NCBI GenBank assembly: GCA_029204225.1
Contig: CM055111.1
Location: forward strand, 19,721,003 to 19,785,002
Length of the DNA stretch: 64,000 nucleotides
DNA from: Diphasiastrum complanatum
Lineage: Eukaryota; Streptophyta; Lycopodiopsida; Lycopodiales; Lycopodiaceae
Direction: 5' to 3'
The translations under genes were made by a program, and so were the position numbers. The notes below the pieces were generated by a model. That model saw only the letters and a list, made by a program, of their open reading frames with translations. It was not told the origin of the DNA and made no database searches. Numbering within the stretch: the first letter of the stretch is position 1; each line of letters begins with the position of its first letter. Positions 9,027 through 55,098 of the stretch are shown here, one piece after another.

Positions 9027-9126
9027 GCTTCTGAAGTTTGTTCTGTTGTTGATGGTTGTTCGTCTGAATGCTTGGTCTCCTGGATCTTGATCGCTTATTG
9101 GCTATGTCAGATTATGACAATAGAGA

Positions 9127-9139
9127 GGCTCTAATACCA
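9127..9139 (-). other. Primer-binding site of A1
   Basis: The minus strand reads TGGTATTAGAGCC, one change from TGGTATCAGAGCC, the usual copia site complementary to the 3' end of initiator tRNA-Met. It lies one base inside the 5' LTR. Confidence 0.85.
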
Positions 9140-9140
9140 C

Positions 9141-17354: not shown

Positions 17355-18375
17355 ATGGTGAGAACACATTCTGATCCAAATCTTTATGTCTTATGCTTTG
17401 ATGATATGGTTGCTTTGATTGCTCTTTATGTTGATGACTTGATTATCACGGAAAATAATCAAAAGATAATAGACATGATCAAGAAAGACCTCATGAAACA
17501 ATTCGAGATGACAGATCTCAGCCTAATGCATTATTGCCTTGGAGTGGAGGTGTGGCAAAAAGGACATGAATTGGGTTTAGCACAGGTGAAGTATGTCAGA
17601 GAGTTGTTACATAGGTTTAGGTTGAAGGATTGCAAGTCAGTGAACACTCCTATTGAACTAGGTAAAAAGCTTTCTCATCTTGAAGAGTCACAGCCATTTG
17701 ATGCTACGCTGTATAGGCAGTTAGTAGGGAGCTTGATTTACCTTACCACGACTAGACCAGATATATGTTATGTTGTTGGTATTGTAAGTCAATTTATGGT
17801 AGCACCTACGGAAATGCATTGGAAGGCAGCTAAGCGCATTTTGCGTTATGTCAAAGGCACTTTAGATTATGGCTTGGCTTACAGGAAGCATGAGGGTTTA
17901 CCTGAGTTATGTGACCATATGGATGCGGATTGGGGAGGTGACTATGATGATCGTAGATCCACCACAGGGTATGTATTCTAGCTTTGTGGCAGTTGCTTTT
18001 CCTGGTCTAGCAAAAAGCAAAGTACATTTTCTTTATCCACCACAGAAGTAGTAAGCAAATTGTGTAGTGCAGCACAAGAAGCTATATGGTTGAGGCAAAT
18101 CTTGGAAGAAATTGGCATGAAACAGGAGAATCCCACAACTATACATAGCGACAGTCAGAGTGGCATTTAGCTAGCAAAGAATCTAGTGTTCCATATGAGA
18201 ACCAAACACATTGAGATTTAGTATCACTTTATACACGTGAGGCTGTTGAGTCGTGAAATTCATGCTATTCATTGTAGTATGAACGAATAACTAACTGATA
18301 TTTTCACTAAGGCTCTTGTTAGAAAAAAGTTTGATAACTTGAAATCAAAGCTTTATGTACTTAAAGTTTGTTGAC
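17355..18375 (+). pseudogene. Copia (C) RT C-terminus and RNase H
   Basis: ALYVDDLIITENNQK holds the YVDD-type catalytic box. The region continues with YCLGVEVWQKGHELGLAQVK, YRQLVGSLIYLTTTRPDICY and HMDADWGGDYDDRRSTTGYV, then a TAG at 17980. RNase H runs on with CFSWSSKKQSTFSLSTTE and RTKHIEI, with more stops, to about 18372. Confidence 0.88.
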
Positions 18376-18429
18376 TTTAAAACTATATATATGACTGTAT
18401 AGAAAGTAGACTCTACTTTAAGGGAGAGA

Positions 18430-18702
18430 GTTAGAATAAAAGTAGAATCACTGTGTTATTGTACCGTGGGTCCTATCAATAGACCTTATCAGTTGGCTTC
18501 GCCACGAGGCGATGGGACACGCGTCCTGTCACTGACAACCCGTCATGCATGGGTTGCCTGAGTGAAGAACTATATGTATAGTGTATTTTCAATTTGAGAA
18601 ATACAGTTGGTACGTGAGCTTGGTGTGGAAAGTGTTTTCTGTCTGTGTTATTGTGTAGCATGATCTCTATTCCTATTCGAAGCAAATTCTAAGTGAAACA
18701 TT
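18430..18702 (+). repeat. 3' LTR of copia lineage C (about 270 bp)
   Basis: The purine-rich tttaagggagagag precedes the repeat start (TTAGAATAAAAGTAG), which ends near AAATTCTAAGTGAAACA. The expected TG start is not clear. A second copy at about 33284-33563 lies in the segmental duplication. No matching 5' LTR was found. Confidence 0.6.
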
Positions 18703-18727
18703 ATGTTAGAATGAGCCAGAGGCTTCC

Positions 18728-19042
18728 TTGGATCCTAATGACAACATTGCAATTGTACCTAATCCAAGTCCACACATATCAAAACAACAAGTTGGTAATG
18801 GTCATAATCGAAACAAGATGAGACGAAAATCAAGTTTGTCCGATTTGTATGTCATTGAAAGTTTTGATAGTGATGCAACTGGGATGACATACAATATTAT
18901 GATTTCAAATGGATTAATAGAAAACCATCAAAAACAAAAACAAAAATACACCATATGTAAGCAAATATATTATGTTTACTTGAGATTAAAAGGCTTCGAT
19001 GTGAATGAAGAGATGTTTATTTACCAACCAATACTAAGTTAA
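18728..19042 (+). other. Unrecognised 104-codon open frame in duplication A
   Basis: It opens MDPNDNIAIVPNPSPHISKQ, and the middle is basic and Ser-rich (NRNKMRRKSSLSDLYVIESF). I do not recognise it. In copy B (from about 33594) the equivalent frame has a TGA where A has CGA, and a shortened 3' part. It could be a fossil exon or chance. Confidence 0.25.
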
Positions 19043-19049
19043 CAAGAGT

Positions 19050-19825
19050 TGTTCTATGTGATGTCAAGGTCTTGACATCTCAAGGTTGTTGGTTGTTAAT
19101 CAACCGACTATGTCTGCTCCTCTTTTTGAATTCAAGCTTAATAAATAGAATTTCAAACTTCATTGGGTTGTTTGAATGCGACTTAGAAATGTAGAATATG
19201 GTTACAAATGATGTTATATTTATGCTATTTCACATCTTTATGGTATGCAACATTATCAATACAAATATATATTTGTAAATGAGTGTACCTTTGCAATTCA
19301 TTTTCAACAAACAAAATATCCAACAATTTGGAGATTGTTAAAATATGTGATTTAGCAAATCATAAGCTCGCATAACTCGCACAAATTTACTTGCAAAGTG
19401 TCAAGTCCCAAGCCCAAGGAAGTCTCTCTCTCCAAGGACACACACTTGCAACTGTAACGCAAATTCTCCACAATTTTCTACCTATTATGAAATTAGAGTT
19501 TTGATTAACAAAGAGATTATTAAGTCCATATCGAAGGCAATTTTTTGAAATAACAATGTTCACAATATCACAACCTTTTTTGCACATACCCTTTCATACA
19601 AAAATTTGTGCAAATTGTCACTACAATTTTTTGAAATTTTAAAATAAACAAAATACTTCTCGCTTATTTGACAATAGGGAAGGGCCTTTCTTTATGCCTA
19701 GGCAGAAGAGCATTGCAAAACTCCTCTCCACCCCAAAAAAAATCCCCATACCATAATAATATAAATAATGTAAAATAACCATGCTTGTACAAAACTTACT
19801 TGTAATAGAAAAGCATAAACGTAGC
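19050..19825. other. AT-rich part of duplication A, no gene recognised
   Basis: Shared with copy B up to about 19415 and specific to A beyond that. A CACTACAA start at 19619 recalls a CACTA terminus, but no partner end is visible. Confidence 0.35.
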
Positions 19826-20439
19826 ATAAGATCTGATGCTAAAAAGACGTATGCTTCACAAAAAGACTCAATTAGTTGGCGCGGACACGTCTTGCTGGGA
19901 ATGAAAGCAATGGATAACCTCTTGTGACATTTTCTCTCTTATTCTTGTGCATTATTCTTAATCTCGTTTTGTTTAAATTTTAAAGTTAGAGCTAAGTAGG
20001 GCTATGATTCGGCTCGGCACAATTCTGTACAGCGTGTAAACAAGTTTGATAGATTATAAATGGATTGAAGGAGAGAACTGCTCTTTGTTGAGATTCAACA
20101 TCACTGCCTTACTCGGAACTCCATACCGGCATTGTTGGACACCCATCATCATATTATTGTTTACGAATATGGCAGGCTCTTATAACTTTGGTTGTGCATA
20201 GAGGGGATTGACTACACAGAAGCAGATACAGAGTTCAGGTTAACCTGTGACAGAGTAGGAAATTGGATCTTAAAGCTAGTGGAAATGGAAAGAGAACTTG
20301 GAGACAATTTCTTGCCCTGCAAGACATCCTAACAACCTTCGAGCTTGTAGTCGAGCTTTTATTGGCATATTGTTGAGAAACTCATTTCGTCAGAAAGCTA
20401 ACACCACTTCTAATTCTATCTATTTTATGTTGCTTTTAT

Positions 20440-20945
20440 TTTAAAGAGGCTTTGGCCCCTCGCATCTTGCAAGCACGGGCCGCACGTATGACGGCTTGGC
20501 CCCGGTGCCCTCCTGACCACACGTTTTTTGTTTTTTGTTTTTTTTTTTTTTTTAAAATTGGTTGTCTGAACGCCACGTGTCCAGGTAGCCAATTTATATC
20601 CCATAAGCATTTCTACAAGGTAAGGGGAGGGAATATATACATAAGCCCACCTAATTGGTAGCATGTGTGTGTGTGTGCATGGGTGCCCGGCGCCACCCGC
20701 CCTGTCCGAGATCACGGCTCGGCGCCGTGGGTGCCCGTGGCCTGGGGCTGCCTGTCGAAAATCTTCACGCTAGACACACCTCAAATTTTGGTGGGCACCC
20801 CCATGCGGACACCCGTCAGCCGCTGGGGGGGGCACCGGCGCCAAACCCCTCCCACGCGCGGGGGTCGTGCACGTAAGTCCCAGTGGGTTAAAGCGGCCGG
20901 GATATCCACCCACATGTGAGTAGGGAAGGTAATGGGAATGTACGT
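20440..20945. repeat. GC-rich module, copy A
   Basis: About 500 bp of strongly GC-rich DNA in an AT-rich region, with a T run at about 20531, a TG microsatellite at about 20663 and phrases such as ggcgccacccgccctg and cggacacccgtcagccgctg. It interrupts sequence otherwise shared with the EamA 3' flank, so it looks like an insertion. No coding capacity is recognised. Copy B is at 34262-34740. Confidence 0.55.
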
Positions 20946-21269
20946 AACCAACCCAACCCAACCACCACACTCGGGGGCCTATTACTTCTATGTATTTAAC
21001 TGAACTACGCAATATTTTGCGAATAGATTTTTGAGCACTCATTCGCCAATATCATAGACACGCTCTTCAGTGCCCAGAAAAAATGGAGATCCAACATCTA
21101 CTATCGGATTATGAACTCTGGTACTGTATTGTGGAGGTTTGAAAGAGTTAGTAAATACGGATAGAGAATCTGTGTTCTTCTGAATCATGAATCATGAAAT
21201 CTACGTCTTTAAGAAGCCTCTCGGTTTGAGCAGTATAGAACAGAGATTTTAGTTGAGATATCAACATGA

Positions 21270-21893
21270 CTCATGGAAGATGATCAGCACTGAGGGGGAG
21301 GGTCGATACCAGGACATTTTTCATCAAATAGCCATGATCCGGTCTGGAAAGATTCTGGCAAAAATTCAGGTGGCCATTTTCTCTCTTCTGTATCTTAAGG
21401 CCCAGATCTGTTTGGTACAGTTGAGAGCGATTGGTAGGTTTTCGAGATGTCATTTTGTTGGTCCACATGGTTGCTAGTAGAACCATCGGTCCTCCCAAAA
21501 GTTCAAGACCATTTGCAGATTTGTGTCAGAGAAGTGTAGAGAAAACTACAACCCAGACTGGAATAGTCATGTAAATGAAAGTGGTGACGGATGCATTCAC
21601 ACCAAGCAGAGCTCGTATTTCCAACCAGCTGCATAGTCCATCACAGACGAGACCATTGTAGATCAATGGAAACCATGGTAAATGTTGAGCTAGTGTTGTG
21701 GAATCTAAGCCCCAATCACTAGAACTGGTGCATAGATTGCATATCTCCCAAAAAGCGCTGAGGACAGTTAATACGGCTAACTGAACGACATTTAAACGCT
21801 TTGCATTCAATGCTTTACCAATTACGAGGACTTCTGCTCGAAATATTTGCAGAGCGAAAGTTAAAGAACTGGCGAAAACCCATGGGTTTCCAC
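21270..21893 (-). pseudogene. EamA last-exon fragment, copy A
   Basis: It matches the second EamA half of the 748-1580 exon (GNPWVFASSLTFALQIF, then LPWFPLIYNGLVCDGLCSWL). Similarity stops upstream at the Gly-Asn-Pro-Trp point, so earlier exons are absent. An in-frame TGA at 21526-21528 replaces a CGA (Arg). It cannot make a carrier. Confidence 0.85.
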
Positions 21894-21927
21894 CTTGAGC
21901 GCGATATATACACAAGGAACTTTTGAT

Positions 21928-22135
21928 TGTTCCTATATAGGAAAAAGAAAGAGTTTTCCTAGAATGAAATACACATAACTAGGAACTGTGCATTCACTAG
22001 GAAAAATGAAACAGTTCCTAGATTGACAATATAGGTTTTCCTATATAGGAAATTTTTGACCAAGAATTTACTAGAATAAGTATTTTTCTATATAGAAAAT
22101 TTTTAACAGAAAAGAATTAGTTTTCCTATATAGAT
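21928..22135. repeat. Cluster of CTATATAG palindromes, copy A
   Basis: Several copies of TTCCTATATAGGAA and close variants occur in about 210 bp, some alternating with the half-form ttcctagaat or actaggaa. Each full copy is its own reverse complement. The copy-B counterpart spans about 35727-35935. Confidence 0.75.
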
Positions 22136-22731
22136 AAATAGCTTCCTTTGATCAGTTGCAATATAGTAGCCAACTCTACTTGTCCCAAAGCATTAAATAA
22201 GTTAAATATGGTGTCAGCTGTTGTTTGGTGGGGATAATCATATGGACTTCTCTCTGGAAAAAAACACACTTAGGCAACGCAAATTCCCAACTTAAACTAT
22301 TAAAAAGCTCGCAGGCAAACCAGAACCGAGATGAGAATTCCCAACTAAAACAAAAATAAAGAAGAAGAAGGGCGAAGTTTAGAAGGAACAAACGATCTTG
22401 TATATAATGACCTAGAGAGTGAGAGTGACCTCAAAGCAAACGGTGGGCTAAAGCATCGCATCTCGAAATGGCACAAATCACAGTCATGAGTTTATTCAAA
22501 CAAAACTAAGAGATACAGTCAATATTCCTTGCAGCAGCTTATAATGTAGAACTAAAGAAAGCCATTCATCAGTTGGTTAGACGCTATAAGTCTGAATTAA
22601 GCGCAACTACTGATGAGCAACCACAATAGCAATCTCTAATCAACTTTAGAATTAAGCGCAACTACTGATGACTAGAACCACAATATAAATCTCTAATCAA
22701 CTCTAAAGAAATGAGCTAGAATACTCATGAG

Positions 22732-23183
22732 TGTCCAAGTCCGCAGGCTTGAGAGAGAACGCTAACTATTCAATACTTGATTCATTATAATGTAGAAATA
22801 TGAGCAGCTATTTATACTAAGCAAATGCGGCAACGTCCAATAGTAGGACAACTAATTAGGTTGTAGATCATAATGGCTAGTGGGCCATAGTGAGTTGGCA
22901 TCCATCTGGATCTTCCTGGAAATTTACTTACTATAAAATTAGGGCAAGTCTATAGCTTTAAAACAAATTGAACAATAAATTGTCTTTCAACCGACACGAA
23001 ATTTGTCGTTGATTGCCAATCAAACGACACGAAATTTGTTGATGATGACACTAAATGTTGGAGCCACCTGTGATCCATTTTTGAGTAATTATGTAGACTG
23101 TGTAAAAACATGAAGAAAGCTACAGGTCTGGATAAAAATTGGACGAAGATTAAGAAGTCGATTAGTAGGAGAATAATCCAACA
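22732..23183 (-). repeat. Probable solo LTR, copy A (452 bp)
   Basis: The minus strand begins TGTTGGATTATTCTCC at 23183 and ends CTTGGACA at 22732, a TG..CA unit with TGT/ACA ends. A TATAAATAG box lies at 22808-22816, about 370 bp from the start. No primer site, coding remnant or clear target duplication flanks it. The equivalent in B is 36592-37043, also 452 bp. Confidence 0.5.
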
Positions 23184-23409
23184 CCCCATGCAACCTAGAA
23201 TAGCAATTGCCCTCCTATTCTTGTATTATAGCAGTTAAACACCATGCAAGTGCTCCCATGTACAATTATAGGTCTGGGCCCACATATGATTATAAATTAC
23301 TTTACTGGTCAAGCCTAGAATGACGAGGCATAACTAATAGCCACATGCACAGGAGTGACCGGCTATCCATGTCAGGAATTATTCCGAATTCCTCATACTG
23401 GACATGGAC

Positions 23410-24310: not shown

Positions 24311-24539
24311 CAAGAGGATTGTGGTTCCTTCGTGGAAGCTTCGCGACTGCAAAACCCAAATCGCGATACACGAACCTGATTCCTCATCAAGAACGTCGCA
24401 CAAAACATCGCGAGTTCTAACCTAAATATGAATTTATAAAGTGCAAGTACGGCTTTACATGAATTTAGGCACTATAACATATTTACATGTACAATATAAA
24501 CAATAATTTTGGATAATGTGGGATCATGAGGCTCCACAT
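24311..24539. other. 3' flank of the H3-like locus, split by a later insertion
   Basis: This DNA was contiguous with position 29603 before the element at 24540-29602 inserted. It therefore lies just downstream (minus sense) of the histone-like pseudogene. No gene is recognised. It contains several cgcgac/tcgcga motifs. Confidence 0.5.
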
Positions 24540-25359
24540 TGTGAGAAATTGGCAAAAATCTAGCTTGGTATTTTTTATGATAGAAGTTTGTAAGTGAATC
24601 TCACATGTGTGGAGGATGTTCCCACATGTGGAGAATTGTAAAGTAAATCAAAATGTTTGATATAGGGGTCTCATAGAATTTCATAGTCAAGCATTTAGGT
24701 GTAGGATGTTGATAGGGTCAAATTTGGCATAGATGGCAAATTATCCATTTCCACTTGTAATGCCAATATTGAGCCAAAATAGAGCCAAACTTGTGCCAAT
24801 TAGAGTGTAGACAAGTGTCATGCTTTTGTTTGATGAAGCTTAAGTGGTCCAATAGGATTTAGAGGTGGAACCTTGTGAGGTCCAATAGAAAATTGAGGTG
24901 TGCTTGAATATAGTCCAATAGAATTTAGAGGTGCATGGATCAATGGTCCAATAAGATTAAGAGGTGGCAAAGTGTGATCCAATCATAGTTAAGCATAGTG
25001 GTAGCTCATGAATCTATTAGTATCATTGTACTCCTCCTTTTGGATCTAATTGATTTTGAGATTGAGTGGATTTTGAGTGTCATTGAATTTCTAGCTTTCT
25101 CTCTCTACCCGAGAGCTCATGATGCATTTTCTCCCTCTACCCGAGGAGAGCAGCTTGTTTTTACTTAGAATACTTTTGGAACACTTCCCACACGTGTGAG
25201 TGAGAGTTGGAAGTGATTGAATGCATGTAGTAGTGTGTTTTTGCCATAGAATCAAAGATAGATCTTGAATCTCAATCTAGTCTTGATCTTGGTGCATCTA
25301 CACACCTTAGGAGATCACAAGTACATGTAGTGGACAATCTACACATGTGAAATTCAACA
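24540..25359 (+). repeat. 5' LTR of the young element (820 bp)
   Basis: Begins TGTGAGAAATTGGC and ends AAATTCAACA, with TG..CA ends. The primer site follows with no gap. Pairs with 28784-29602. Confidence 0.95.
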
Positions 25360-25372
25360 TGGTATCAGAGCC
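25360..25372 (+). other. Primer-binding site of the young element
   Basis: TGGTATCAGAGCC, an exact match to the usual initiator tRNA-Met primer site, immediately after the 5' LTR. Confidence 0.93.
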
Positions 25373-26116
25373 TACCTAAGGTTACCATGCATTTTGATCC
25401 ATTTGAGTGAAAACTATTCATCAATCTTGAGCTAGAAATTGTCAAGGCCCATTTTCCTAGTTATGTTGTTCAATTTTGGATCAAAAGAGATCAAAAGGAC
25501 ATTGATTGGGTCTGACCTGGTACTGTACGGAATCAGGTGCTCAGACATGTGTGAGGAACATCCAATTTCAGTTTGGGAGTTTTCTTTCATGTTTGATCCA
25601 AAAATCTTGCTAGATAGCTTGTTTTGAAGCTATTTTTGTCTAGTTTCTGATGCAATCAGTTTCATTCCATTTGGTTGAGCCAATCAAAAGTTATAAGCTT
25701 TTGAAGAGGGTTAGGTAGGGCACCTAGACCTGGGTGGACACATGTGGTTTGGTCAAAAGATTGCTTGTTTGATCCAAAATCACAGTTGAATGCTTACCAA
25801 TCTCATCTATATGTGATCTAGGCATTGTTTTGAGATCTTAGCCATTTTGTTTCATGCAATATCATTGTATTTGAGTCAAATTTGGTTTCTTACTGTATTT
25901 CACACGTGCTAAGAGTGTTTGATCTTAACTTTGCCCATACTCCATCATTTGATGTGAAGTAGATCTAGTTTTGGAGAGATTGAGATAGCTAGTGAGAATC
26001 ATCTCACAATTTGTTGCAAGATCTTGCATAGGAGATGGTAGCACACCATTATTGGATCCTATAGTGAGAGAGAAGCAACATTTTTTATTCATCACTTTTA
26101 TTTATCTCCACTTTAC

Positions 26117-26476
26117 ATGACTTCAATGAGTTCATACTTGTTGCAACCAAGTGAGAGATTGTCTACTTCCAATTATTCAATATGGAAGTTGAGGATGGAG
26201 TCCATCTTGATACTCCAAGATGTGATGGACATTGTACTTGGGATTGAGGAGGAGCCTCAAGTCCTTCAAGAAGTACAAAAATACAAGAAGAGAGCTAGGA
26301 TGGCTCTCCACTACATTAAGATGGATGTCTCTAATGAGATATTGAGGGAGATTGGTGATTGTTCTACATCCAAGGAAGCTTGGGATTGTCTCAAGTCCAT
26401 CTATGAGGCTAAGAACACCTCTAGGCTCCTCAAAATAGTAAAAAGAGTGATGAGAGTGCATCTAATTATGTTTTGA
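26117..26476 (+). CDS. Gag N-terminal frame of the young element
   Basis: Begins MTSMSSYLLQPSERLSTSNY and has the copia Gag start motif NYSIWKLRMESIL, then the UBN2-like SKEAWDCLKSIYEAKN. Gag forms the particle that packages element RNA. The frame leaves the Gag pattern near 26435 at an A-rich site (caaaatagtaaaaag); the Gag-like reading continues in another frame (DESASNYVLRVRDI) into the long frame below. This is either a frameshift mutation with a small deletion or a slippage site. Confidence 0.8.
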   Translation: MTSMSSYLLQPSERLSTSNYSIWKLRMESILILQDVMDIVLGIEEEPQVLQEVQKYKKRARMALHYIKMDVSNEILREIGDCSTSKEAWDCLKSIYEAKNTSRLLKIVKRVMRVHLIMF

Positions 26477-27966
26477 GAGTCAGGGATATTCATAGGGAGC
26501 TTGCATGTATTGGTGACTCAATCAATCAAAGTGAGCTAGTCCAAGTCATTCTCAATGGCTTGAGAGATGAATATGACAACCTTGTCCAATCCTATGCTAT
26601 TAAGGAGGAGCTACCAAGTTTGGAGGCCCTTCAAAGTGTGCTTATTTCTGAAGAATCAAGACAAGAGTACAAACTCTTGAGGATGGACAAGCTATCACTC
26701 AATCATGATGATGACAAAGTTCTATTTGCCAAGCACAAAGAGAGGAGTAAGAAGCAACACCATCACTTCTCTAATGACAAAGCTAAAGACCAAGATGGAG
26801 AGGAGGAGGATACCTCTCATGCTTCTAATTCAAATCTCAAGAAGAAGATGATCAAGTGCTTTTATTGTGGCAAGAAAGGCCATTATGCCACCAATTGCTT
26901 CAAGAAGAAGAATCAACTCAATCAAGCCAACATCACCAATGAGAAAGAAGACTATATTGCAAGTGATGGAAAATGCTCTCTTATGGCATCAAGCTTCTCC
27001 TCTTCCACCTTTAACAAGGATGACTCATGGTATATTGATAGTGGAGCATCTTCACATATGTGTGGCTCGAAGCACTTTTTTTCATCTATTATGCCTTATG
27101 ATGGAGTCAAGAAGACCATATACTTTGCAAGTAAGCATGAGTGCAATATTGAAGGAGTAGGGATTATTCCCTTGAAGCTTGCATCTTCTAAAGATCTCTT
27201 TCTCAACAATGTTCTTTTTGTCCCAAAGCTTATAAAGAACATCTTAAGTGTTGGCCAACTTCTTGATAGTGGCTTTGATGTCAATTTCAATATTGACAAT
27301 TGTGTGATTAAGAAGGATGGTGAGATCCTTGCATATGGATCAAGATTTGAAGGCATTTACAAATTGGATCCAAGTGAGAGTGCAAACTCTCTTGATGTTT
27401 CTTATATTTCCAAAATTTCAAAGGAGGAGGATGACACAAGATGCACATATCTTCTCTCTTCAAGTATTATGGTGTATGATTATTCCTTATTATTCAAAGC
27501 ATATGTTGAGAAGAAATTCTCATTGAAGATCAAAGCTTTGAGGAGTATTGGAGCTCTTGAAGGAATAGCACCATATGAAGTTTTATTCAAGATGAAGCCT
27601 AAGGTTGATCACCTTAGTGAACTTGGTAGTGCTTGCTTTGCACATATTCCCTTGGAAACAAGAAGGAAGGATGATCCAAGCTCATGGATCATGATTGGAT
27701 ACTCATCCATCAAGGAGGCCTTTAGTGTCTTTACACTCTCTATTTCAAATGTGATCGTGAATAGAGATGTCATATTGCATGAAGATTCAATCTTGGAAGT
27801 GGCCGAGATCAAGGCTTCTCAAGAAGCATCACAAGTTATCCTTTTTGAAGGTATTCAAGTTATGATGGGGCCAATGTGTGAGGAGGAGTTTCTTCTTCAT
27901 ATGATTTCAAGAAGATCTTCAAGATGCATGGCCGAGTCTTTATGGCTCACCTTACATGGCAAATAG
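26473..27966 (+). CDS. Gag C-terminus, CCHC knuckle, protease and integrase remnant
   Basis: A 497-codon frame. It starts in the UBN2 part (VRDIHRELACIGDS), has an intact CCHC knuckle CFYCGKKGHYATNC at residue 129 and an aspartic protease site WYIDSGASSHM at about residue 189. NNVLFVPKLIKNILSVGQLL completes the protease. It then skips the integrase zinc site and DDE core and resumes at PYEVLFKMKPKVDHLSELGS and the VNRDVIL motif of the integrase tail. The open frame through a deleted integrase suggests that Gag and protease function was kept after the enzymes were lost. The Met at 26473 is probably not a true start. Confidence 0.85.
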   Translation: MRVRDIHRELACIGDSINQSELVQVILNGLRDEYDNLVQSYAIKEELPSLEALQSVLISEESRQEYKLLRMDKLSLNHDDDKVLFAKHKERSKKQHHHFSNDKAKDQDGEEEDTSHASNSNLKKKMIKCFYCGKKGHYATNCFKKKNQLNQANITNEKEDYIASDGKCSLMASSFSSSTFNKDDSWYIDSGASSHMCGSKHFFSSIMPYDGVKKTIYFASKHECNIEGVGIIPLKLASSKDLFLNNVLFVPKLIKNILSVGQLLDSGFDVNFNIDNCVIKKDGEILAYGSRFEGIYKLDPSESANSLDVSYISKISKEEDDTRCTYLLSSSIMVYDYSLLFKAYVEKKFSLKIKALRSIGALEGIAPYEVLFKMKPKVDHLSELGSACFAHIPLETRRKDDPSSWIMIGYSSIKEAFSVFTLSISNVIVNRDVILHEDSILEVAEIKASQEASQVILFEGIQVMMGPMCEEEFLLHMISRRSSRCMAESLWLTLHGK

Positions 27967-28783
27967 GGGCATCTTTCATGTTGTATCTACTACAACACAT
28001 TCATATATGCTTCTCTTCCTTTGCTTGAAATGCTATCTTGCTTCATTGAATTTTTTGGATCTCAAAGTTCAAGAAAAGCTATACTAGTTTTGTATGATGC
28101 TTATGGTATGGACATGTTTCTTGTCATTATTGACTTAGCTGTGTTTCCAATACTTTTTGAAAGCAAGATATTGTATTGTCAAAAGTATGCTCTTGGTTCT
28201 AGTAAGACAAGATTGAGCTTGGTACTCACTTTTTTGAAAATCATGTTTTCACATGTTTTGAGGCAAATTGTAAACTCCTCTTGAGATTAAGTGAAGCATC
28301 CTTACATCCTTGAGAGAGTAACTAGCCTAAAAAAGATCAAGATAGTCTTTGATATCAAGATTAGATCCATCATGGATATAGTTCATTGTATGTGGACTAG
28401 TCGAGCTAGAAAGCATAAGCTTGATAATCATCATTGTTTCACATCTTATGATCTTGATCTCCATGATCCTTATGAGGCTTGGAAGCCTCATATTTCTCTA
28501 TTTATGGTGCATCCATCATGCAAGTGGAACTTTCAAGGCAAAGATCATCATCAAGCATGGAGGAAGCCCATGATAATAGTGGCATATTGGTGGAGCACTC
28601 TTCAAAGGCATTGGCAAGAGATCTCTACCAAAGAGATCTTATCATGGATATGGTGAGGGTGCTGCTATGATGGATCCCTTGGCTGATTTTCACTTCTTAT
28701 GCATACCAAAGGATCCACTCAAAAATATTTACAAACTTCTCAAGTGATCTAGTACCTTTCCAAGCTATTTTTTTGAGGAGGAG
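27967..28783 (+). other. Region of the young element that replaces RT and RNase H
   Basis: About 0.8 kb with short frames (28021-28284 and 28291-28656) and no YVDD box or RNase H motif. It ends at the purine tract before the 3' LTR. I do not recognise its origin. Confidence 0.5.
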
Positions 28784-29602
28784 TGTGAGAAATTGGCAAA
28801 AATTTAGCTTGGTATTTTTATGATAGAAGTTTGCAAGTGAATCTCACATGTGTGGAGGATGTTCCCACGTGTGGAGAATTGTAAAGTAAATCAAAATGTT
28901 TGATATAGGGGTCTCATAGAATTTCATAGTCAAGCATTTAGGTGTAGGATGTTGATAGGGTCAAATTTGGCATAGATGGCAAATTATCCATTTCCACTTG
29001 TAATGCCAATATTGAGCCAAAATAGAGCCAAACTTGTGCCAATTAGAGTGTAGACAAGTGTCATGCTTTTGTTTGATGAAGCTTAAGTGGTCCAATAGGA
29101 TTTAGAGGTGGAACCTTGTGAGGTCCAATAGAAAATTGAGGTGTGCTTGAATATAGTCCAATAGAATTTAGAGGTGCATGGATCAATGGTCCAATAGGAT
29201 TAAGAGGTGGCAAAGTGTGATCCAATCATAGTTAGGCATAGTGGTAGCTCATGAATCTATTAGTATCATTTTACTCCTCCTTTTGGATCTAATTGATTTT
29301 GAGATTGAGTGCATTTTGAGTGTCATTGAATTTCTAGCTTTCTCTCTCTACCCGAGAGCTCATGATGCATTTTCTCTCTCTACCCGAGGAGAGCAGCTTG
29401 TTTTTCCTTAGAATACTTTTGGAACACTTCCCACACGTGTGAGTGAGAGTTGGAAGTGATTGAATGCATGTAGTAGTGTGTTTTTGCCATAGAATCAAAG
29501 ATAGATCTTGAATCTCAATCTAGTCTTGATCTTGGTGCATCTACACACCTTAGGAGATCACAAGTACATGTAGTGGACAATCCACACGTGTGAAATTCAA
29601 CA
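28784..29602 (+). repeat. 3' LTR of the young element (819 bp)
   Basis: Begins TGTGAGAAATTGGC and ends AAATTCAACA. It differs from the 5' LTR by about 11 substitutions and one T. CACAT follows at 29603-29607. Confidence 0.95.
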
Positions 29603-29617
29603 CACATATCCCCTTCC

Positions 29618-31808
29618 TCAGCAGTGCAGTGGCTCGCAAACAAATTGCTTACAATCTTCTTTGTTACTTCCTTTTGGTTGGCTTTCTATGGAAAATAGCT
29701 TTTGCTCGGGCTTCATTTCATTCATTGACTTGCCTTTTGTAGCAAGGTAGTAATTGTTCTTCTGGTTGTAATCTTCCTGAAATGATAAATTCAAATAACC
29801 TCCCATTCCTTGATTTTCCAATGGTGCAAGGGGGTTGTCGATCAATGTGTTATTTTCAAGATGAGTGTACCAACTATCCCCAGACAAGATTTCAGACATC
29901 TCAGCAGAAGGGACAATTAGTGAGAGGGGTGCATATGTATATTTTGGGAATTTTTCTTTAATGTATAATTGTTGAATGGACAAAAGGGCATATGAAATGA
30001 GAGAACCAATATTTACATAATTGTAAGTATAGTATGGTTTGGTTATTGGGTTAGTAAAGCGAAGTATATCATCTGCTTTAACTTCCTCCAAATAATGAGA
30101 ATAATTAGCTTCCCAATCTGTGTAGATTTCCCACAGATCAAGGAATAATAGCTGACTAGAGACCTTGGAAGGAGTTGGATCAGGTCTAGGAACTACTCAA
30201 TTAACATCAAAAATGTTAATTGGGTCTAGCTTATTCCGATACTCATCCAAAGCTGGAAAAATATTGTTTTCAAATGTTTTTAGATATTCTAGGATATATA
30301 TATGCAAAGATCCTATAACAACGTGGATATAGTTAGTTTGCACATTGAGCTTATTCTGAACAATGGCAAGAGCAAAGATACCTTTTTGGTGCACTGTTAG
30401 TTTGGCCCAAAAAGTGTTTAGGCTAGAAAAAATCCAAGGGCTTTCCCATTGTTCTTTTGTATAACCAAAAAGTTTTGGTAAAAGAAGGTAATCCATTCTC
30501 CACTGGAGTTCTGGACTATTAAAAGGTAGAAGAAAAAATGTTAGTTCTTGTTGGAATGTCTGAAATTCTGTCTTTAGTAGTGAATACACTACCTTGTTCT
30601 TCCTCTTGACAGCTCCACTGTGTGATGCTTCAGCCTGCTACAAAATAATTGGTAGAGTTGCTGGTTGGTCTAAAGAAGCTATGTCACTGGTTGCTTTTGG
30701 CTTCACAGCATCCTCAAGGTCAGTCTGCACATCTTGATCTTTCTGGATTTGCTTAAAAACAATATCTATCTAGATGGCCTTCTCTGATGTATCTTTAACT
30801 GGCTCATCCATCTGCATAGACTAGTCTTGGCGCTGGACATGTTCTTTATCTTCAAAATTCTGGATTTGGCTTGATTGAAACTTAGCCTCTTCCAGTTCTT
30901 CTTTCAATTTCTCATATGAAACCATCTAGGGTTGCAAATATTGCAGTTGGAAGGTCTGGATAATTTTTTCTTGAATACCTTACAAGTTGTTGGGTCGATC
31001 CTGTATCTCCCATGAGATACACAAGCTCCCAATGTGACTTCGGCACTTATCCGCCATAGAATTGTCTCTTTGGCTTGTTTCTTATAGATTTGGTTGCCTT
31101 TCCTTAGTAGAGTCTGTAGAATTCTACAGCTAGGCAACAGAGTCCTGAAGCTGCTTTGATTTGCTTGGGCACTCTCCTTGTTGGTAATGGCATTGCTAAG
31201 TTTGTCGCTCAGCTCCTCGTTACTACTCTGCAAAGTAGCTCGTGCAACATCTGACTCAGAGCTCAAGAAGACACGGGGTCTCTTGGCCGGGATATGTCCA
31301 GGAGGAAGGGAGATAGCTGGCCTTCGAGATCCAGCCTTCTTGGGGACAACTTGCTTCTCTTCCTCCTAGAGGTAGTAGGCATGTTGGTTCTATCCAGAGG
31401 TAGGTCTCTAGAGGTGCTGGCATTATCAACATGCAGACCAAAATATCTGTCCCGAAGCCTTTTGAGAATGAAGAAATCCTTTGGCATGATGGTGACACGC
31501 TTACCATGCACTGCCAAAAGACAAGTATCCTCAAAAAACTAGGACAGAAAATCATCTGCAGCACCCTGCAAGGCATGCATGGCTGTCACGGCAAAACAAA
31601 TATCTAGGCCAAGTGACAGAGTGACATTCCATACAGATTGGCCGAAAGGAGCTCTAGGGATCAACAATTCAGTTGATCTCTGGAGTTTTCTGATCTCCCT
31701 CAGCCAGACCTGCTTCCTGCCACGCCTACAGCCAGTATCAGGGGGAACACGAGAATGGGATGGCTGTATAGTAGTGATGGCACGGGCGGTGGATTTGGTC
31801 ATGACCAT
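29618..31808 (-). pseudogene. Divergent histone H3 domain fused to coiled coil and an unknown C-terminal domain, decayed
   Basis: The probable start is the ATG at 31808. The first residues, MVMTKSTARAIT, follow the H3 tail pattern (T3, K4, T6, A7, R8 kept; K9 replaced by Ala). The fold follows: LREIRKLQRSTELLIPRAPF (H3 LREIRKYQKSTELLI), an AMHALQGAADDFLS helix, then FFEDTCLLAV and HGKRVTIMPKD, almost identical to H3 IHAKRVTIMPKD. Loop 1 has ordinary H3 length, without the CENH3 insertion. After about residue 130 come a Ser/Arg-rich linker, a Gln/Glu-rich coiled-coil stretch (about 31270-30620) and an aromatic-rich domain (about 30600-29621) that I do not recognise. Breaks: TAG at 31539-31541, frameshifts near 31265 and 31165, then TAG/TAA at 31130, 31124, 31082, 30980, 30926, 30821, 30770 and 30638 and TGA at 30197. 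Expected role, if ever functional: a DNA-packaging or chromatin-tethering protein. The histone match is strong; origin is open. Confidence 0.8.
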
Positions 31809-32118
31809 CATTCTTGGAAGAAGAAAATTAACAAAAAGAAGTTTGAACAAAACAAAAGTGGATCAAAACAAAAAACTTTGCGATGAAAGGGCGCTTGAGA
31901 TCGATACCAGCACTGAATATCGGTTTCGAGCACAAGATCTATAGAGATTGTTTGTAGAAAAGAGATGCGCGCTCGAAAGCGATATTGCACAGCAGGCGGT
32001 ATCGGACTCGAGCGCACTGTGAGAGGACGGAAGCTTGAATTATGAAAGAGCGCACTTAAGAGCGATATCGAGAGCTAAAAGCGAAAATTTTGCGAAAAAA
32101 AATGAAAATTCCGAGGAC

Positions 32119-32125
32119 TTATATA
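32119..32125 (-). promoter_or_regulatory. TATA box of the H3-like locus
   Basis: The minus strand reads GTCTATATAAGTCC about 310 bp upstream of the H3-like ATG, just inside the G-box repeat. Position and sequence suit a plant core promoter; transcription is not shown. Confidence 0.55.
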
Positions 32126-32460
32126 GACGAAATTTTTGCACATGTAAAAAGACGGCCGAGACATGTGTCATCAGATGATTAGACCACGTGGAATGTCTGT
32201 ACTAACAATGATGAGCCAAGTATGAGGCCACGTGGGCTGAGACACGTGTGCGAATACCTAATCGACACGTGTCATTCACGCACGTGACAGATGTTAGATC
32301 AATCATACTACGACACATTTATTTTGGCTAATCACAAGTTGATACGTGTTCCTTCGCCAGTCCTCCACACGTGCAATTTTTTTTTATAAATATGTCTTTT
32401 TTGGGCTCATATTTTCACGCAAATTCATGATTGCATTGCCAGATATCAATTTCAAACACA
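32125..32460. promoter_or_regulatory. G-box-rich direct repeat, proximal copy
   Basis: Six CACGTG G-boxes lie at 32185, 32229, 32243, 32266, 32281 and 32368, several as perfect ACACGTGT. G-boxes bind plant bZIP and bHLH factors. The block is directly upstream of the TATA box of the H3-like locus and is repeated at 32753-33010. Confidence 0.75.
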
Positions 32461-32752
32461 CCGCTTGCTCTCATTACATCTTGTTGGCTAATATGCGCTT
32501 GGATCCGATACTACAACGTCCAGTTTCGCTTTGGAGCGCGTCTTGCAACCTTTTTCTTTTCTGCTCGTTTTCCTTGCGCTCGGATCCGATACTCCAACTT
32601 CAAATATCTCTCTCGAGCGCACGTTGATTTGATGTGCTTGTCGGACCTAGGGTTTGCGCCTGAGAGCGATATTTGGAACTTCAGTTCTGTTATTTTTGTT
32701 TAAAATGCTAATTTTGAATCTAGTTTGCTTTCTTTTTTTAATGGATTTTTGC

Positions 32753-33010
32753 AAATTTTTGCACGTGTGAAAAGACGTCCGAGACACGTGTCGTCAGATG
32801 ACTAGACCACGTGGAAATTCCGTACTGATAATGATGACCCAATTATGGGGACACGTGGGCTGAGACACGTGCGCGAATCCCTTATCGACGCATGTCATTC
32901 TCGGACGTGACAGATGTCAGATCAATCATTCATAGTATGACGCATTTATTTTGGCCAATCACATGTCGACACGTGTTGCTTTGCCGGATATCGATTTCAA
33001 GCACGCCGCT
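32753..33010. promoter_or_regulatory. G-box-rich direct repeat, distal copy
   Basis: The second copy of the block (matching agaccacgtgga and gggctgagacacgtg) has CACGTG at 32762, 32785, 32808, 32852, 32866 and 32970. It is cut off at 33011 by the start of segmental duplication B. Confidence 0.75.
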
Positions 33011-33283
33011 TCAGTCAGAGTGGCATTTAGCTAGCAAAGAATCTAGTGTTCCATACGAGAACCAAACACATTAAGATTTAGTATCACTTTATACGCGTGA
33101 GGCTGTTGAGTCGTGAAATTCATGTTATTCATTGTAGTATGAACGAACAACTAGCTGATATTTTCACTAAGCCAGTTGTTAGAAAAAAGTTTGATAAGTT
33201 TAAATCATAGCTTTATGTACTTAAAGTTTGTTGACTTTAAAACTATGTATATGACTGTATAGAAAGTAGACTCTACTTTAAGA

Positions 33284-33563
33284 GAGAGAGTTAGAATTAA
33301 AGTAGAATCACCGTGTTATTGTACTGTGGGTCCTATCAGTAGATAAGGATCAATTCGCTTCGCCACGAGGCGATGGGACACGCGTCCTGTCAACGGCAAC
33401 CTGGGTCATGCATGGGTTGCATGAGTGAAGGACTATATGTATAGTGTATTTTCATTTTGAGAAATACAGTTGCTACGTGAGCTTGGTGTGGAGAGTGTTT
33501 TCTGTCTGTGTTATTGTGTAGCATGATCTCTGTTCCTATTCAAAGCAAATTCTAAGTAAAACA
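33284..33563 (+). repeat. LTR of copia lineage C, copy B
   Basis: Matches 18430-18702 closely (gttagaattaaagtagaatc, cacgaggcgatgggacacgc). Preceded by the same RNase H tail and purine tract, with the same ORF remnant downstream. Confidence 0.65.
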
Positions 33564-34261
33564 TTATGTTAGAATGAGCCAGAGGCTTCCTTGGATCCTA
33601 ATGACAACATTGCAATTGTACCTAATCCAAGTCCACACATATCAAAACAACAAGTTGGTAATGGTCGTAATTGAAACAAGATGAGACGAAAATCAAGTTT
33701 GTCCGATTTGTATGTCATTGAAAGTTTTGATAGTGATGCAACTGGGATGACATACAATATTATGATTTCAAATGGATTAACAGAAAATCATCAAAAAAAA
33801 AAACAAAAATACACCAAATGTAAGCAAATATATTATGTTTACCTTCAATGTGAATGAAGAGATGTTTATTTACCAACCAATACTAAGTTAACAAGAGTTG
33901 TTCTATGTGATGTCAAGGTCTTGACATCTTAAGGTTGTTGGTTGTTAATCAAATGACTATGTCTGCTCCTCTTTTTGAATTCAAGCTTAACAAATAGAAT
34001 TTCAAACTTCATTGGGTTGTTTGAATGCAACTTAGAAATGTAGAATATGGTTACAAATGATGTTATATTTATGCTATTTCACATCTTTATAATTTGCAAC
34101 ATTATCAAAACAAATATATATTTGTAAATGAGTCTAACTGTGCAATTCATTTTCAACAAACAAAATATCCAACAATTTGGAGATTGTTAAAATATGTGAT
34201 TTAGCAAATCATAAGCTCGCATAACTCGCACACATTTACTTGCAAAGTGTCAAGTCTCAAG

Positions 34262-34740
34262 CCCCGGTGCCCTCCTGACCACACGTTTTCTTTTTTTTTA
34301 AAACTGCCTGCCTGAACGCCACTTGTCCAGGTAACCAGTTTATATCCCATAAGCATTTCTACAAGGAAAGGGGAGGGAATATATACAGAAACCCACCTAA
34401 TCGCTAGCATGTGTGTGTGTGTGTGTGTGCATGGGTGCCCGGCGCCACCCGCCCTGCCCAACGCCACTGCCCGGCGCCACCTGCAGGCTGCCCGACACCA
34501 CCCGTCCTGTCCGAGACTGCGGCTCGGCGCCATGGGTGCCCGTGGCCTGGGGCTGCCTGTCAAAAACCCTCACGCCAGCCACATCTCAAATTTTGGCGGG
34601 GACCCCCTTGTGGACACCCGTCAGCCGCTGGGGGGCACCGGGGCCAAACCCCTCCCACGCGCGGGCCATGCTCGTAAGTCCTAGCGGGTTAAAGCGGCCC
34701 AGATATCCACCCACACACATGTGAGCAGGGAAGGTACTGG
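34262..34740. repeat. GC-rich module, copy B
   Basis: Counterpart of 20440-20945. It carries an extra ~57 bp between two copies of a ccaccc(g)cctgt-type motif at about 34458-34515, consistent with gain or loss between short direct repeats, and a longer TG microsatellite at about 34410-34428. Confidence 0.55.
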
Positions 34741-35067
34741 GAATGTACGTAACCAACCAACCTATTGCTTCTATGTATTTCATATTATCTATATAACTGA
34801 ACTACGCAATATTTCGCGAACAAATTTTTTAGCACTCATTCGCCAATATCATAGACATGCTCTTCAGTGCCTAGAAAAGATGGAGATCCAACATCTACTG
34901 CCGGATTATGAACTCTGGTATGGTATTGTGGAGGTTTGAAAGAGTTAGTAAGTACGGATAGACAATCCGTGTTCTTCTGAATCATGAATCATGAAATCTA
35001 CGTCTTTAACAAGCCTCTCGGTTTGAGCAGTATAGAACGGAGATTTTAGTTGAGATATCAACATGAC

Positions 35068-35690
35068 TCATGGAAGATGATCAGCACTGAGGAGGGTAGA
35101 TACCAGGACATTTTTCATCAAATAGCCATGATCCGGTCTGGAAAGATTATGGCAAAAATTCAGGTGGCCATTTTCTGTCTTCTGTATCTTAAGGCCTAGA
35201 TCTGTTTGGTACAGTTGAGAGCGATTGGTAGGTTTTCGAGATGTCATTTTATTAGTCCACATAGTTGCTAGCAGAACCATCGGTCCTCCCAAAAGTTCAA
35301 GACCGTTTGCAGATTTGTGTCGGAGAAGTGTAGAGAAAACTGCACCCCAGACTGGAATAGTCATGTAAATGAAAGTGGTGACGGATACATTCACACCGCG
35401 CAGAGCTCGTATTTCCAACCAGCTGCATAGTCCACCACAGACGAGACCATTGTAGATCAATAAAAACCTTGGTAAAGGTTGAGCTAACGTTGTGGAATCT
35501 AAGCCCCAATCACTAGAACTGGTGCGTAGATTGCATATCTCCCAAAAAGCGCTGAGAACAGTTAATACGGCTAACTGAACGACATTTAAACGCTTTGCAT
35601 TCAATGCTTTACCAATTTTGAGGACTTCTGCTCAAAATATTTGCAGAGCGGAAGTTAAAGAACTGGCGAAAACCCATGGGTTTCCACCTT
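35068..35690 (-). pseudogene. EamA last-exon fragment, copy B
   Basis: Matches the EamA exon (LLIYNGLVCGGLCSWLEIRA, YMTIPVWGAVFSTLLRHKSA). A TGA at 35632-35634 replaces CGA in the LQIF-Arg-AEV stretch; downstream of it the frame is open to the same SADHLP end as copy A. The copy A nonsense codon is not shared, so decay was independent after duplication. Confidence 0.85.
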
Positions 35691-35726
35691 CAGCGCGATA
35701 TATACACAAGGAACTTTTGATCGTTC

Positions 35727-35935
35727 CTATATAGGGAAAAAAAAGAGTTTTCCTAGAATGAAATACACATAACTAGGAACTGTGCATTCACTAGGAAAAA
35801 TAAAACAGTTCCTAGATTGACAATATAGGAAAACTTTTCCTATATAGGAAAATTTTGACCAAGAATTTCCTAGAATAAGTATTTTCCTATATAGAAAATT
35901 TTTAACAGAAAAGAATTAGTTTTCCTATATAGATA
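35727..35935. repeat. Cluster of CTATATAG palindromes, copy B
   Basis: Counterpart of 21928-22135. One site is extended here to a longer palindrome around aggaaaacttttcctatata. Confidence 0.7.
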
Positions 35936-36591
35936 AATAGCTTCCTTTGTTCAGTTGCAATATAGTAGCCAACTCTACTTGTCCCAAAGCATTAAATACG
36001 TTAAATATGGTGTCAGCTGTTGTTTGGTGGGGATAATCATATGGACTTCTCTCTGAAAACAAACACACTTAGGCAACGCAAATTCCCAACTTAAACTATT
36101 AAAAAGCTTGCAGGCAAACCAGAACCGAGATGAGAATTCCCAACTAAAACAAAGATAAAGAAGAAGAAGGGCAAAGTTTAGTAGGAACAAACGATCTTGT
36201 ATATAATGACGTAGACAGTGAGAGTGACCTCAAAGCAAACGGTGGGCTGAAGCATCGCATCTTGAAATGGCACAAATCACAGTCATGAGTTTATTCAAAC
36301 AAAACTAAGTCAATATTCCTTGCAGCAGCTTATAATGTAGAACTGAAGAAAGCCATTCATCAGTCGGTTAGACGCTATAAGTCTGAATTAAGCGCAACTA
36401 CTGAGCAGCTATTTATACTAAGCAAATGTGGCAACGTCCGATTGTAGGACAACTAATCAGGTCGTAGATCATAATGGCTAGTGGGCCATAGTGACTAAAT
36501 ATAAGTCTGAACTAAGCGCAACTACTGATGACTATAACCACAATAGAAATCTCTAATCAACTCTAAAGAAATGAGCTAGAATACTCAAGAG

Positions 36592-37043
36592 TGTCCAAGC
36601 CCACAGGCTTGAGAGAGAACACTAACTATTCAATACTTGATTCATTATAATGTAGAAATATGAGCAGCTATTTATACTAAGCAAATGCAGCAACATCCAA
36701 TAGTAGGACAACTAATTAGGTCGTAGATCATAATGGCTAGTGGGCCGTAGTGAGTTGGCATCCATCTGGATCTTCCTGGAAATTTACTTGCTATAAAATT
36801 AGGGCAACTCTGTAGTTTTTAAACAAATTGAACAATAAATTGTCTTTCAACTGACACGAAATTTGTCGTTGACTGCCAATCAAACGACACAAAATTTGTT
36901 GATGATGACACTAAATGTTGGAGCCACCTGTGATCCATTTTTGAGTAATTATGTAGACTGTGTAAAAACATGAAGAAAGCTACAGGTCTGGATAAAAATT
37001 GGATGAAGATTAAGAAGTCGATTAGTAGGAGAATAATCCAACA
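36592..37043 (-). repeat. Probable solo LTR, copy B (452 bp)
   Basis: Same ends and length as 22732-23183. The TATA-type ctatttata is near 36668. An additional ~95-bp piece of the same LTR lies upstream at about 36404-36496. Confidence 0.5.
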
Positions 37044-37200
37044 CCTCATGCAACCTGGAATATCAGTTGCCCTCCTATTCTTGCATTATAGCAGTCAAAC
37101 ACCATGCAAGTGCTCCCATGTACAATTATAGGTCTGGGCCCACATATGATTATAAACTACTTTACTGGTCAAGCTCGGAATGACGAGGCATAACTAATAG

Positions 37201-38253
37201 GCATAGCCGTGCTAAAATTTTGCATGTACAAAGTTGTTTCTCTAATATATGATTACCTAGTGTATTTGCAGAGAAACCAGTTATTCAAAAGTGCCCTAGT
37301 CATGAATGTTGTAGTAGCCGATTTCGAGAAAAGGACTGACAAGTTTATGAACAGTAGATAATTTTTGATAACAGAGAAAATATATCTACTGTAAGTAGGC
37401 ATCAAAATCATTCACAGATTACACACCATAGACATAATGTCGCAATTTTTTTTTTTGTTTACAACAACATTTTCAAGCACTGTTTGTTTTCCAAATCAGC
37501 ACGTCGGTGCAAGAGAGGTATTCTCTCTTACGAGGAACTAGCTACTGCTCATTCTATATCTGTTTGTGTGACAATGTGTGTCTGCTACTTTGTGACTATC
37601 ACTGACGCATTAAAAAAAAAAACCCAGCACATCTCCCACGTTCATCCTGTTTATATAGGAATAGAGAGAAGGGAGTTTATGCTAATCATTTGATTACAAG
37701 AAATTGTTTAAGCTCATTCTAACGATTTTTAATTGTGTGTTGTCGTTGTCGTCGTCCGTGGAGTCTGTTCTCCATGTTGGTACTTCGTTGATCTTGCATG
37801 GTACCTAGGTCATGAAGATCCGCCACTTTTGCAGCCATCTGTGAGTCGTATGTGACCATAATCATTTCCTTGCGGTGTCTCTGCGGTCGTGAAGGTTCTT
37901 CGGAGCCTGAGACCTTTGGCAAGCAACCACAGATAGACCGTAGTAGGGGCTTATGTGGTGCTCAGGCGGTTCGTCTCTTCGAGAGGGGAGAAATATTGTA
38001 AATCGTTAGTGTGAACTTTGTGGTGGCCTTCAGTCAGCTTCCTTTGTGGACTGCTTTGTGTTTGTTTCATAGGTGACTGCAAGCTCCAACTTGGAGATGG
38101 CCTTTGGTTTACTTTGCATTGGACCATAGGCTAGACTCTTTTAAAGTTGTTTGCATTGTAGTTATGGTTATTGTCAGTTTATGCCTACTGGTAGTTCCCA
38201 TGTATTTCTGCAGGTTCATAAGCTAGCAATGCTTTGTGGGTAGAAACTTCGTG
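37201..38253 (-). repeat. Diverged A-family LTR, probably solo
   Basis: At 38253 the minus strand reads AAGAAACACGAAGTTTCTAC then CACAAAGCATTGCTAGC, like the polypurine tract plus LTR start of A1 and A4. Near 37470-37530 the caagcactg..ggtgcaagagagg stretch matches the middle of the A LTR. The inner end is uncertain (about 37201-37440). No internal coding sequence is attached. Confidence 0.5.
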
Positions 38254-54303: not shown

Positions 54304-55098
54304 TAATAGGTGTGTATCTTGTTCCTTAAATTTTGTCGCATTGGAGGAGTTTGGCTACTGCTGCTATTGCTTATTTGTCTCATTGTAGATGTGGATGCGA
54401 CACTCCTTGATGTTGTGATTGGCTCTCTTGCAATATCTATAGAAGAGCTTCTTGTGTGATCCATTGTTCTCACCTTGAGTGTGAGGGTTCTACTGTTGCT
54501 GCTGCTGCACTTGATTCTTGGCCTTGGAATAGTCTTTCTTCTTGGTGTACAGGGCCATGGATTTGTCTTTGATGGATAGGTCACTGGTCTTTCTCCGCAT
54601 TTCTTCTTGAAGAAGATGACCGATCACCTTTTGAAGAGTGAGGTTGGGTTGTGTGGAGATCATCACCACAAAGTATTCATATGACTTTGGAAGAGAAGAA
54701 AGCAAGGTGATAACGACATCATCATCTTAAATGGCACATCCTACAGCTGATAACTGATCCAATACAGATTTGAAGTTATTGATGTGAGAAGTGATGGCAG
54801 TAGAATCAGACATGCTAAGAGTAAAAAACTTCCTTCTAAGATGTAATCTAGTGGTTACATCATGAGTCTCATAGATATTTGATAACAAATCTAATATATC
54901 ATCTTTGATCTTTCATGTCTTTGCTTGGTCACCATCTTCTGGTTTTAGGTTAGAACCTTCTACTAGATTCCAAAGATCTCTATCTATCAACATCATCCGA
55001 AGTTTTAACTTCCAGATGTAGAAGTTAAATCCATTGAACTTGTCAATGATTCTAGCTTCGTTGGATGATGAAAATGAAGAGCTACCAATGTGAGACAA
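54304..55098 (-). pseudogene. Copia gag, lineage D
   Basis: Start MSHIGSSSFSSSNEARIIDK at 55098, then FNGFNFYIWKLKLRMMLIDR of the Gag N-terminus. The UBN2 end reads MLSSLPKSYEYFVVMISTQP. The zinc knuckle near 54410 reads FYRYCKRANHNIKEC, its first Cys changed to Tyr. Stops and frame changes separate the pieces. Confidence 0.82.

Follow-up and report, generated by a model that had tools for sequence, protein, structure and literature searches.

A predicted histone H3–protease fusion gene carried by a mobile inverted-repeat element of Diphasiastrum complanatum

Near the middle of the stretch of DNA analysed here, the 64,000-nucleotide window G000:C20:19721003-19785002, a histone H3 domain on the minus strand runs on into a Gln-rich coiled coil and an aromatic-rich region. 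To which gene does this H3 belong, and what carries it? An earlier note had read the whole as one decayed, multi-domain gene of about 700 codons. Comparison with copies elsewhere in the genome (1,744,706,496 bases searched) divides the region as follows:

31420..31808, minus strand: histone H3 domain (tail start and fold), a pseudogene, from Pfam, PDB and translation
31247..31419, minus strand: the H3 gene's basic linker (..SRRKR..KRPRVFLSSESD), reached through a frame change that lies upstream of 31365, from translation and comparison with other H3 loci
31245..31246, no strand: junction of the H3 element and a gypsy ORF, with a 2-bp overlap (TG on the minus strand), from comparison of copies
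29603..31246, minus strand: Ty3/gypsy 3' ORF fragment (coiled coil and aromatic-rich part), with 4 stops in 29621-30919
24540..29602, plus strand: copia-type LTR element splitting the gypsy part, with LTRs at 24540-25359 and 28784-29602 that are 98.5% identical
31245..32985, minus strand: fragment of an H3-bearing inverted-repeat element, equivalent to 5066-6760 of a 10,345-bp copy on C22, at 83.9% identity
32130..32985, minus strand: region upstream of the H3 gene, overlapping the start of the element's divergent second gene, from sequence comparison

The histone fold in the window is beyond chance, given the Pfam Histone match of the ORF at 31539-31850 (minus strand; 35.5 bits, E 1.3e-8) and the match of the ORF at 31542-31862 (minus strand) to H3 and CENP-A chains in the PDB, with a best E of 7e-9 and CENP-A at the top. 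The first of these, above the Pfam cutoff of 26.4 bits, is the outcome of the profile search that the earlier note had proposed, and together they bear out the motifs it had read on the minus strand, the tail start TKSTAR, LREIRK..STELLI and HGKRVTIMPKD. The H3 part also contains a CENH3-like LLIPxAPF block. Because of an in-frame stop at 31539-31541 and the frame change upstream of 31365, this copy is dead, and the decay noted at the outset extends through the four further stops of the C-terminal part.

In an alignment of 24 rows, representing 22 distinct loci of which 10 are C20 relatives of the window, Lys4, H113, K115 and T118 are kept and Lys9 is replaced by Ala in every row, confirming the reported absence of Lys9. 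A tree with H3 and CENH3, also proposed earlier, was built with eight reference sequences; it unites the H3s of this lineage, called lineage A here, in one clade (100/100, branch 0.94) and so gives them a place of their own, not inside the CENH3 rows. Capture of a CENH3 was rejected on this placement and on a loop 1 that is not longer; the lack of a CENH3-type insertion there had been claimed before and holds against the CENH3 references. Protein database searches returned no match; one of them had a single candidate, and its database seems poor in eukaryotic histones.

The single 700-codon gene, by contrast with its H3 domain, did not survive: two different repeats are joined at 31245/31246. 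Reading the apparent frame through takes three frames, and its C-terminal 433 codons hold the four further stops. Other copies match the H3 side as far as 31245 (L041-L043, L046) and the coiled-coil side from 31246 on (L026, L031, L035), with 2 bases common to both sides. Of 20 loci fetched as best H3 matches, all 10 on C20 (L001-L007, L010-L012; 17.2-20.0 Mb) contain the junction, and all 10 elsewhere (L008, L009, L013-L020, including the near-duplicates L009/L015 and L013/L019) run on into the H3 gene's own linker. Seen from the C-terminal part, in a comparison with the window that covered L021-L032, L034 and L035, the match ends exactly at 31246 in six loci (L026, L027, L029, L031, L034, L035) and before the junction in two (L030, L032), while six others (L021-L025, L028) have both the H3 part and the C-terminal part. 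The suggested search for copies retaining both parts therefore found them together, but only in C20 copies.

The C-terminal part is a piece of a retrotransposon. In a fuller copy (L045), the coiled-coil 3' ORF lies between an RT-RNase H recognised by Pfam and an integrase-like ORF recognised by eye on one side and, on the other, a pair of LTRs with 94% identity that the locus end truncates; this position beside gypsy pol and LTRs places window 29603-31246 in Ty3/gypsy. The copia-type element that splits it is flanked by a CACAT duplication (24535-24539 and 29603-29607), its site is uninterrupted in L024, L025 and other loci, and it is a young element that split the gypsy part later.

The apparent 700-codon fusion thus arose from a chance junction with the gypsy ORF that several C20 copies now share, and it is dead; the junction, together with the loci off C20 that lack it, rules out the H3 and the coiled coil as one gene. 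There is next to no probability that the window's frame is itself a working fusion gene. A single frame does run across the junction, from SSESD into the coiled coil, and the junction recurs in all 10 fetched C20 H3 loci, but the frame changes before it, stops lie on both sides, and it is absent from all 10 H3 loci elsewhere; moreover, colinearity with the window extends to 33.36 kb in six of the 10 C20 loci, which therefore look like duplicates of one accident. Of the histone-fusion protein proposed earlier, the fusion itself stands, in that the element family encodes one (see below), while the Gln-rich coiled coil and aromatic region fall away as its partner, being a gypsy 3' ORF found joined to H3 only on C20.

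Several near-copies of the window's junction region, with 93-99% identity, are present at 17.2-20.0 Mb on C20, which points to segmental duplication of that part of C20. The window also holds duplicated blocks of 82-96% identity (18152-23343, 33012-37203 and 593-1527) that include drug/metabolite-transporter-like frames, and one of these blocks borders the H3 fragment. Within 32130-32985, a 233-bp repeat occurs at 32130-32358 and 32753-32985, with 84.5% identity.

When copies are compared, the H3 repeat proves to have exact ends that are inverted relative to each other, CATTAGAGAAA... on one side and ...TTTCTCTAATG on the other. One H3-bearing copy, C22:37843964-37854308, is 10,345 bp long and has the following anatomy, in coordinates of that copy:

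313 to about 2560, plus strand: left gene
about 5200 to 3205, minus strand: second, divergent gene
from about 6184, plus strand: H3 gene
8813-9169, minus strand: possible ORF

Genome-wide, at up to 2 mismatches, the left end is found 1146 times and the right end 1045 times, with 0 for the backward controls; these numbers count ends and do not imply an H3 gene in each copy. Element copies are listed on nearly all large contigs. In the first search for the H3, 5249 candidate places came up and 150 were scored, each with E < 1e-46, and most scored H3-gene copies carry stops, as they also do in the list for the second lineage described below. Exact inverted ends in many dispersed copies, combined with a pair of occupied and unoccupied sites, are the marks of a TIR DNA transposon. 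To judge from these sequence features, the H3 gene is carried by a mobile element, as the earlier note had considered; this element is present in many copies, has an inverted terminal repeat at either end, and probably moves as a DNA transposon.

Both ends were read in eight copies (C22, C14, L060/L070, L061/L071, L066/L076, C2:32.2 Mb, C2:45.47 Mb and C3:5.57 Mb); a ninth end pair, 21 kb apart, was set aside. Seven of the eight share no bases beside their ends, that is, display no target duplication. The C14 copy has CTC in both flanks, inside a CT repeat, and lacks the last element base. For the copy at C3:37.05 Mb (L066/L076), the window itself supplies the counterpart:

54565..54895, minus strand: related unoccupied target site, with the flanks of the copy equivalent to 54895-54635 and 54634-54565

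Each flank is 87% identical to the window, and the two abut at 54635/54634 without duplication. Placed on the copia sequence of the window, the two flanks of the C2:45.47 Mb copy share 11 bases, and on the left a gap of 19 bases remains before the element; a target duplication may therefore exist there. A missing target duplication is unusual for a DDE transposon. The left end was also sought at predicted places for 10 copies and found in 3, and L041:277, considered as a sharp left end, proved to be L041's own flank.

Three known groups fit poorly. A Helitron was suggested by the right end alone and rejected on the left end being its inverted copy; the hallmarks of Helitrons (5' TC, 3' CTRR, A/T insertion, no inverted ends) are not those of an element with inverted ends CATTAG/CTAATG and varying flanking bases. 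CACTA (EnSpm) elements have CACTA ends and a 3-bp duplication, and here the ends are CATTAG, with a 3-bp match (CTC) in one of the eight copies. MULE/VANDAL features are likewise absent, with no 9-11 bp target duplication in seven of the eight copies and no MULE domain among the Pfam matches.

No transposase was recognised by Pfam among the element ORFs tested, the left and second genes giving no family above cutoff. A D..D..CxxC look was noted by eye, and that the left gene encodes a transposase is our guess. The second gene (rc(L050) to L057, element 3205-5202, minus strand) has a 471-aa open frame in the C22 copy, and its pieces tested from L041 had no Pfam match. Among windows with less than 1% stops, the lowest pN/pS values are 0.35-0.45 for the left gene, 0.24-0.48 for the second gene and 0.43-0.50 for the H3 gene. 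This signal of constraint is weak, given that other windows of the same genes reach 0.7-0.8, that one antisense window has 0.34, and that the distribution over 578 windows has a median of 0.61 and a 5th percentile of 0.31. A plus-strand frame at L049:7456-8124, beside another repeat, has about 68% DNA identity to part of the left gene (B copy) and may be a sign of related element families.

If the coiled coil is not the partner of H3, copies beyond C20 should reveal what is. Exon 1 of L041 forms an open frame of 394 codons, stop to stop, and is followed by an intron, an exon starting RHWSLNILF, an exon with QNDAFSCAWFVLYNTKLFFEW and a last exon ending in a stop, with matching phases. Pfam recognises Histone in this gene (70.6 bits, E 1.8e-19) and has no protease match to the C-terminal part of the lineage A copy. 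A profile built from Ulp1, SENP1 and SENP8 scores 13.5 bits against lineage A, compared with at most 7.3 among the 872 shuffles listed of 1000; SENP8 alone gives the C-terminal part 5.6 bits versus 6.0 for shuffles, and hhalign gives a probability of 1.5%. The AlphaFold model of the L041 exon has a mean pLDDT of 29.7. Among lineage A copies outside C20, pN/pS is 0.51 in the H3 part versus 0.65 and 0.77 in the wrong frames, and the C-terminal part has no sign of constraint (0.86 versus 0.58 and 0.52).

The partner is clearer in a second, divergent lineage. A search for host H3, which scored 150 of 6060 candidates, found 13 intact canonical H3 genes and many divergent H3 frames. At C8:18046657 (L093+L096) lies an uninterrupted four-exon gene of 491 aa, lineage B, with the same intron phases as lineage A. 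Pfam assigns it both Histone (87 bits, E 1.5e-24, above cutoff) and Peptidase_C48 (36.1 bits versus a cutoff of 20.7, E 7.9e-9), and the Ulp1/SENP profile scores 23.8 bits, compared with at most 9.0 among 801 shuffles listed. The C48 part contains HW, PQQ and SCG motifs; in alignments, the His (HW) and Cys (SC) of the catalytic triad are present and the Asp position is not evident. Position 9 of the H3 part is Asp, read by eye, and pairwise alignment places one extra residue near loop 1. All 120 relatives scored, from 9549 candidates, have E < 1e-171, and 27 of them, counted by hand, have no stop in exon 1.

Lineage B has 30% identity to L041 over exon 1 and 54-59% to L041 and L042 in the H3 core, with saturated synonymous sites (pS 0.86-0.90); pN/pS between the lineages is 0.39 in the H3 core and 0.63-0.65 in the rest. 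Saturated synonymous sites and a common exon layout with the same phases indicate that H3 and protease stayed joined through a deep divergence. The better preserved copies thus display four exons predicted to encode an H3 variant at the N-terminus, with Lys4 but not Lys9, then a basic linker and, at the C-terminus, a C48 cysteine protease of Ulp1 type, the latter being the putative fusion partner in place of the coiled coil. Mobile DNA in this genome is accordingly predicted to encode an H3–protease fusion.

A third kind of repeated H3-like frame was seen in L090, L091, L092, L094 and L095 (C10, C17, C12, C11), with a proline-rich lead and an H3 core about 54-56% identical to canonical H3, ending soon after the fold; no protease was seen in the 1.3 kb fetched. 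In the H3-gene copy lists of both lineages, TAG is by far the commonest in-frame stop on an uncounted reading, a bias that C-to-T change at CAG codons in methylated repeats would produce.

We propose that the window's H3 (31.4-31.8 kb) is the decayed remnant of an accessory gene belonging to a mobile element, and that the H3–protease product of such a gene would loosen silencing, a reading to which we give about an even chance. The H3 part would put the protein into nucleosomes, or at least bind it to chromatin; without Lys9, the variant could not be methylated at position 9 and would be no substrate for H3K9 methyltransferases; and the protease would take SUMO or a related modifier off chromatin proteins, so that silencing of the element could be loosened. 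Our confidence in the predicted anatomy of the gene is high, and in the chromatin mechanism moderate to low; the protein may act on host chromatin, perhaps against silencing. A bolder version, which we regard as doubtful, posits a so far undescribed group of plant transposons that insert without duplicating the target and whose nucleosome-forming, Lys9-less H3, fused to a SUMO-type protease, would let the element supply its own chromatin state, resisting heterochromatin marking and stripping silencing factors.

Other functions, or none, have to be weighed against this proposal. The H3 domain might serve targeting, steering insertion or segregation by docking on nucleosomes or centromeres of the host, and have no anti-silencing role; the CENH3-like LLIPxAPF block and the CENP-A chains among the best PDB matches fit such docking, and a protease of Ulp1 type could in that case act on whatever lies close by. 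However, the tree does not group the H3 part with CENH3 and copies are listed on nearly all large contigs, and we consider a targeting role unlikely. It is similarly improbable that the H3 and C48 parts are passengers captured from the host and without function. Two lineages with saturated synonymous sites have retained the H3 core, the fusion and the exon phases, and exon 1 is free of stops in 27 of the 120 lineage B copies scored, even though most scored copies do carry stops, constraint within lineage A is weak, and gene capture is common in plant transposons according to PMC13317346.

An integrated linear DNA virus or virus-like plasmid, bringing a viral H3, would account for exact inverted ends without target duplication and for several genes with no assigned family, and viruses with histones exist. 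Yet Pfam recognised no viral gene in the ORFs tested, and about a thousand copies of each end speak for transposition. When viral contigs were scanned with two pieces of the window and with two relatives, at a depth that reaches close relatives only, no relative was found, which leaves the integrated virus considered in the earlier note unsupported. We judge this origin very unlikely, well below the targeting and passenger readings.

Outside viruses, no genetic parasite is known to carry a core histone of its own. The titles and opening lines of abstracts listed in searches of an open-access library mention neither a transposon-encoded H3 nor an H3–Ulp1 fusion, which is no proof of absence. 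Here, a plant mobile element is predicted to have an H3–protease gene with over a hundred scored copies in each of two deeply separated lineages, suggesting that mobile DNA may tamper with the chromatin of its host. If so, whether mobile DNA changes the nucleosome itself to escape silencing becomes directly testable, and the element is a source of natural H3 variants that have lost Lys9 and kept the fold.

Large DNA viruses that carry histones offer the precedent of a genetic parasite with its own core histone, differing from the present case in their fusion partner and in that no viral relative was found here. With canonical H3 and H3.3, the element H3 has in common the histone fold and K4, H113, K115 and T118; it differs from Arabidopsis H3.1 in having 41-46% identity over 122-123 residues, a clade of its own and no Lys9, whereas the 13 host H3 genes are 97-99% identical to that sequence. 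It resembles CENH3/CENP-A in its best PDB matches and LLIPxAPF block, but falls outside the CENH3 rows of the tree and, in lineage A, has no loop-1 insertion. As described in PMC13317346, plant VANDAL/non-TIR MULE transposons have several genes, among them an accessory Kaonashi (KIU) gene with an Ulp1 domain, and the related VANC proteins counter silencing. The likeness lies in a multi-gene plant DNA transposon with an Ulp1-domain accessory gene; here, by contrast, H3 is the fusion partner of the Ulp1 part, the element ends in inverted repeats, and neither a 9-10 bp target duplication nor a MULE transposase was recognised. Fungal DNA transposons, according to PMC12730594, carry TET/JBP dioxygenases, chromatin-level enzymes thought to counter silencing; where those elements have a DNA-demethylating enzyme, the present one would have a histone variant and a peptidase.
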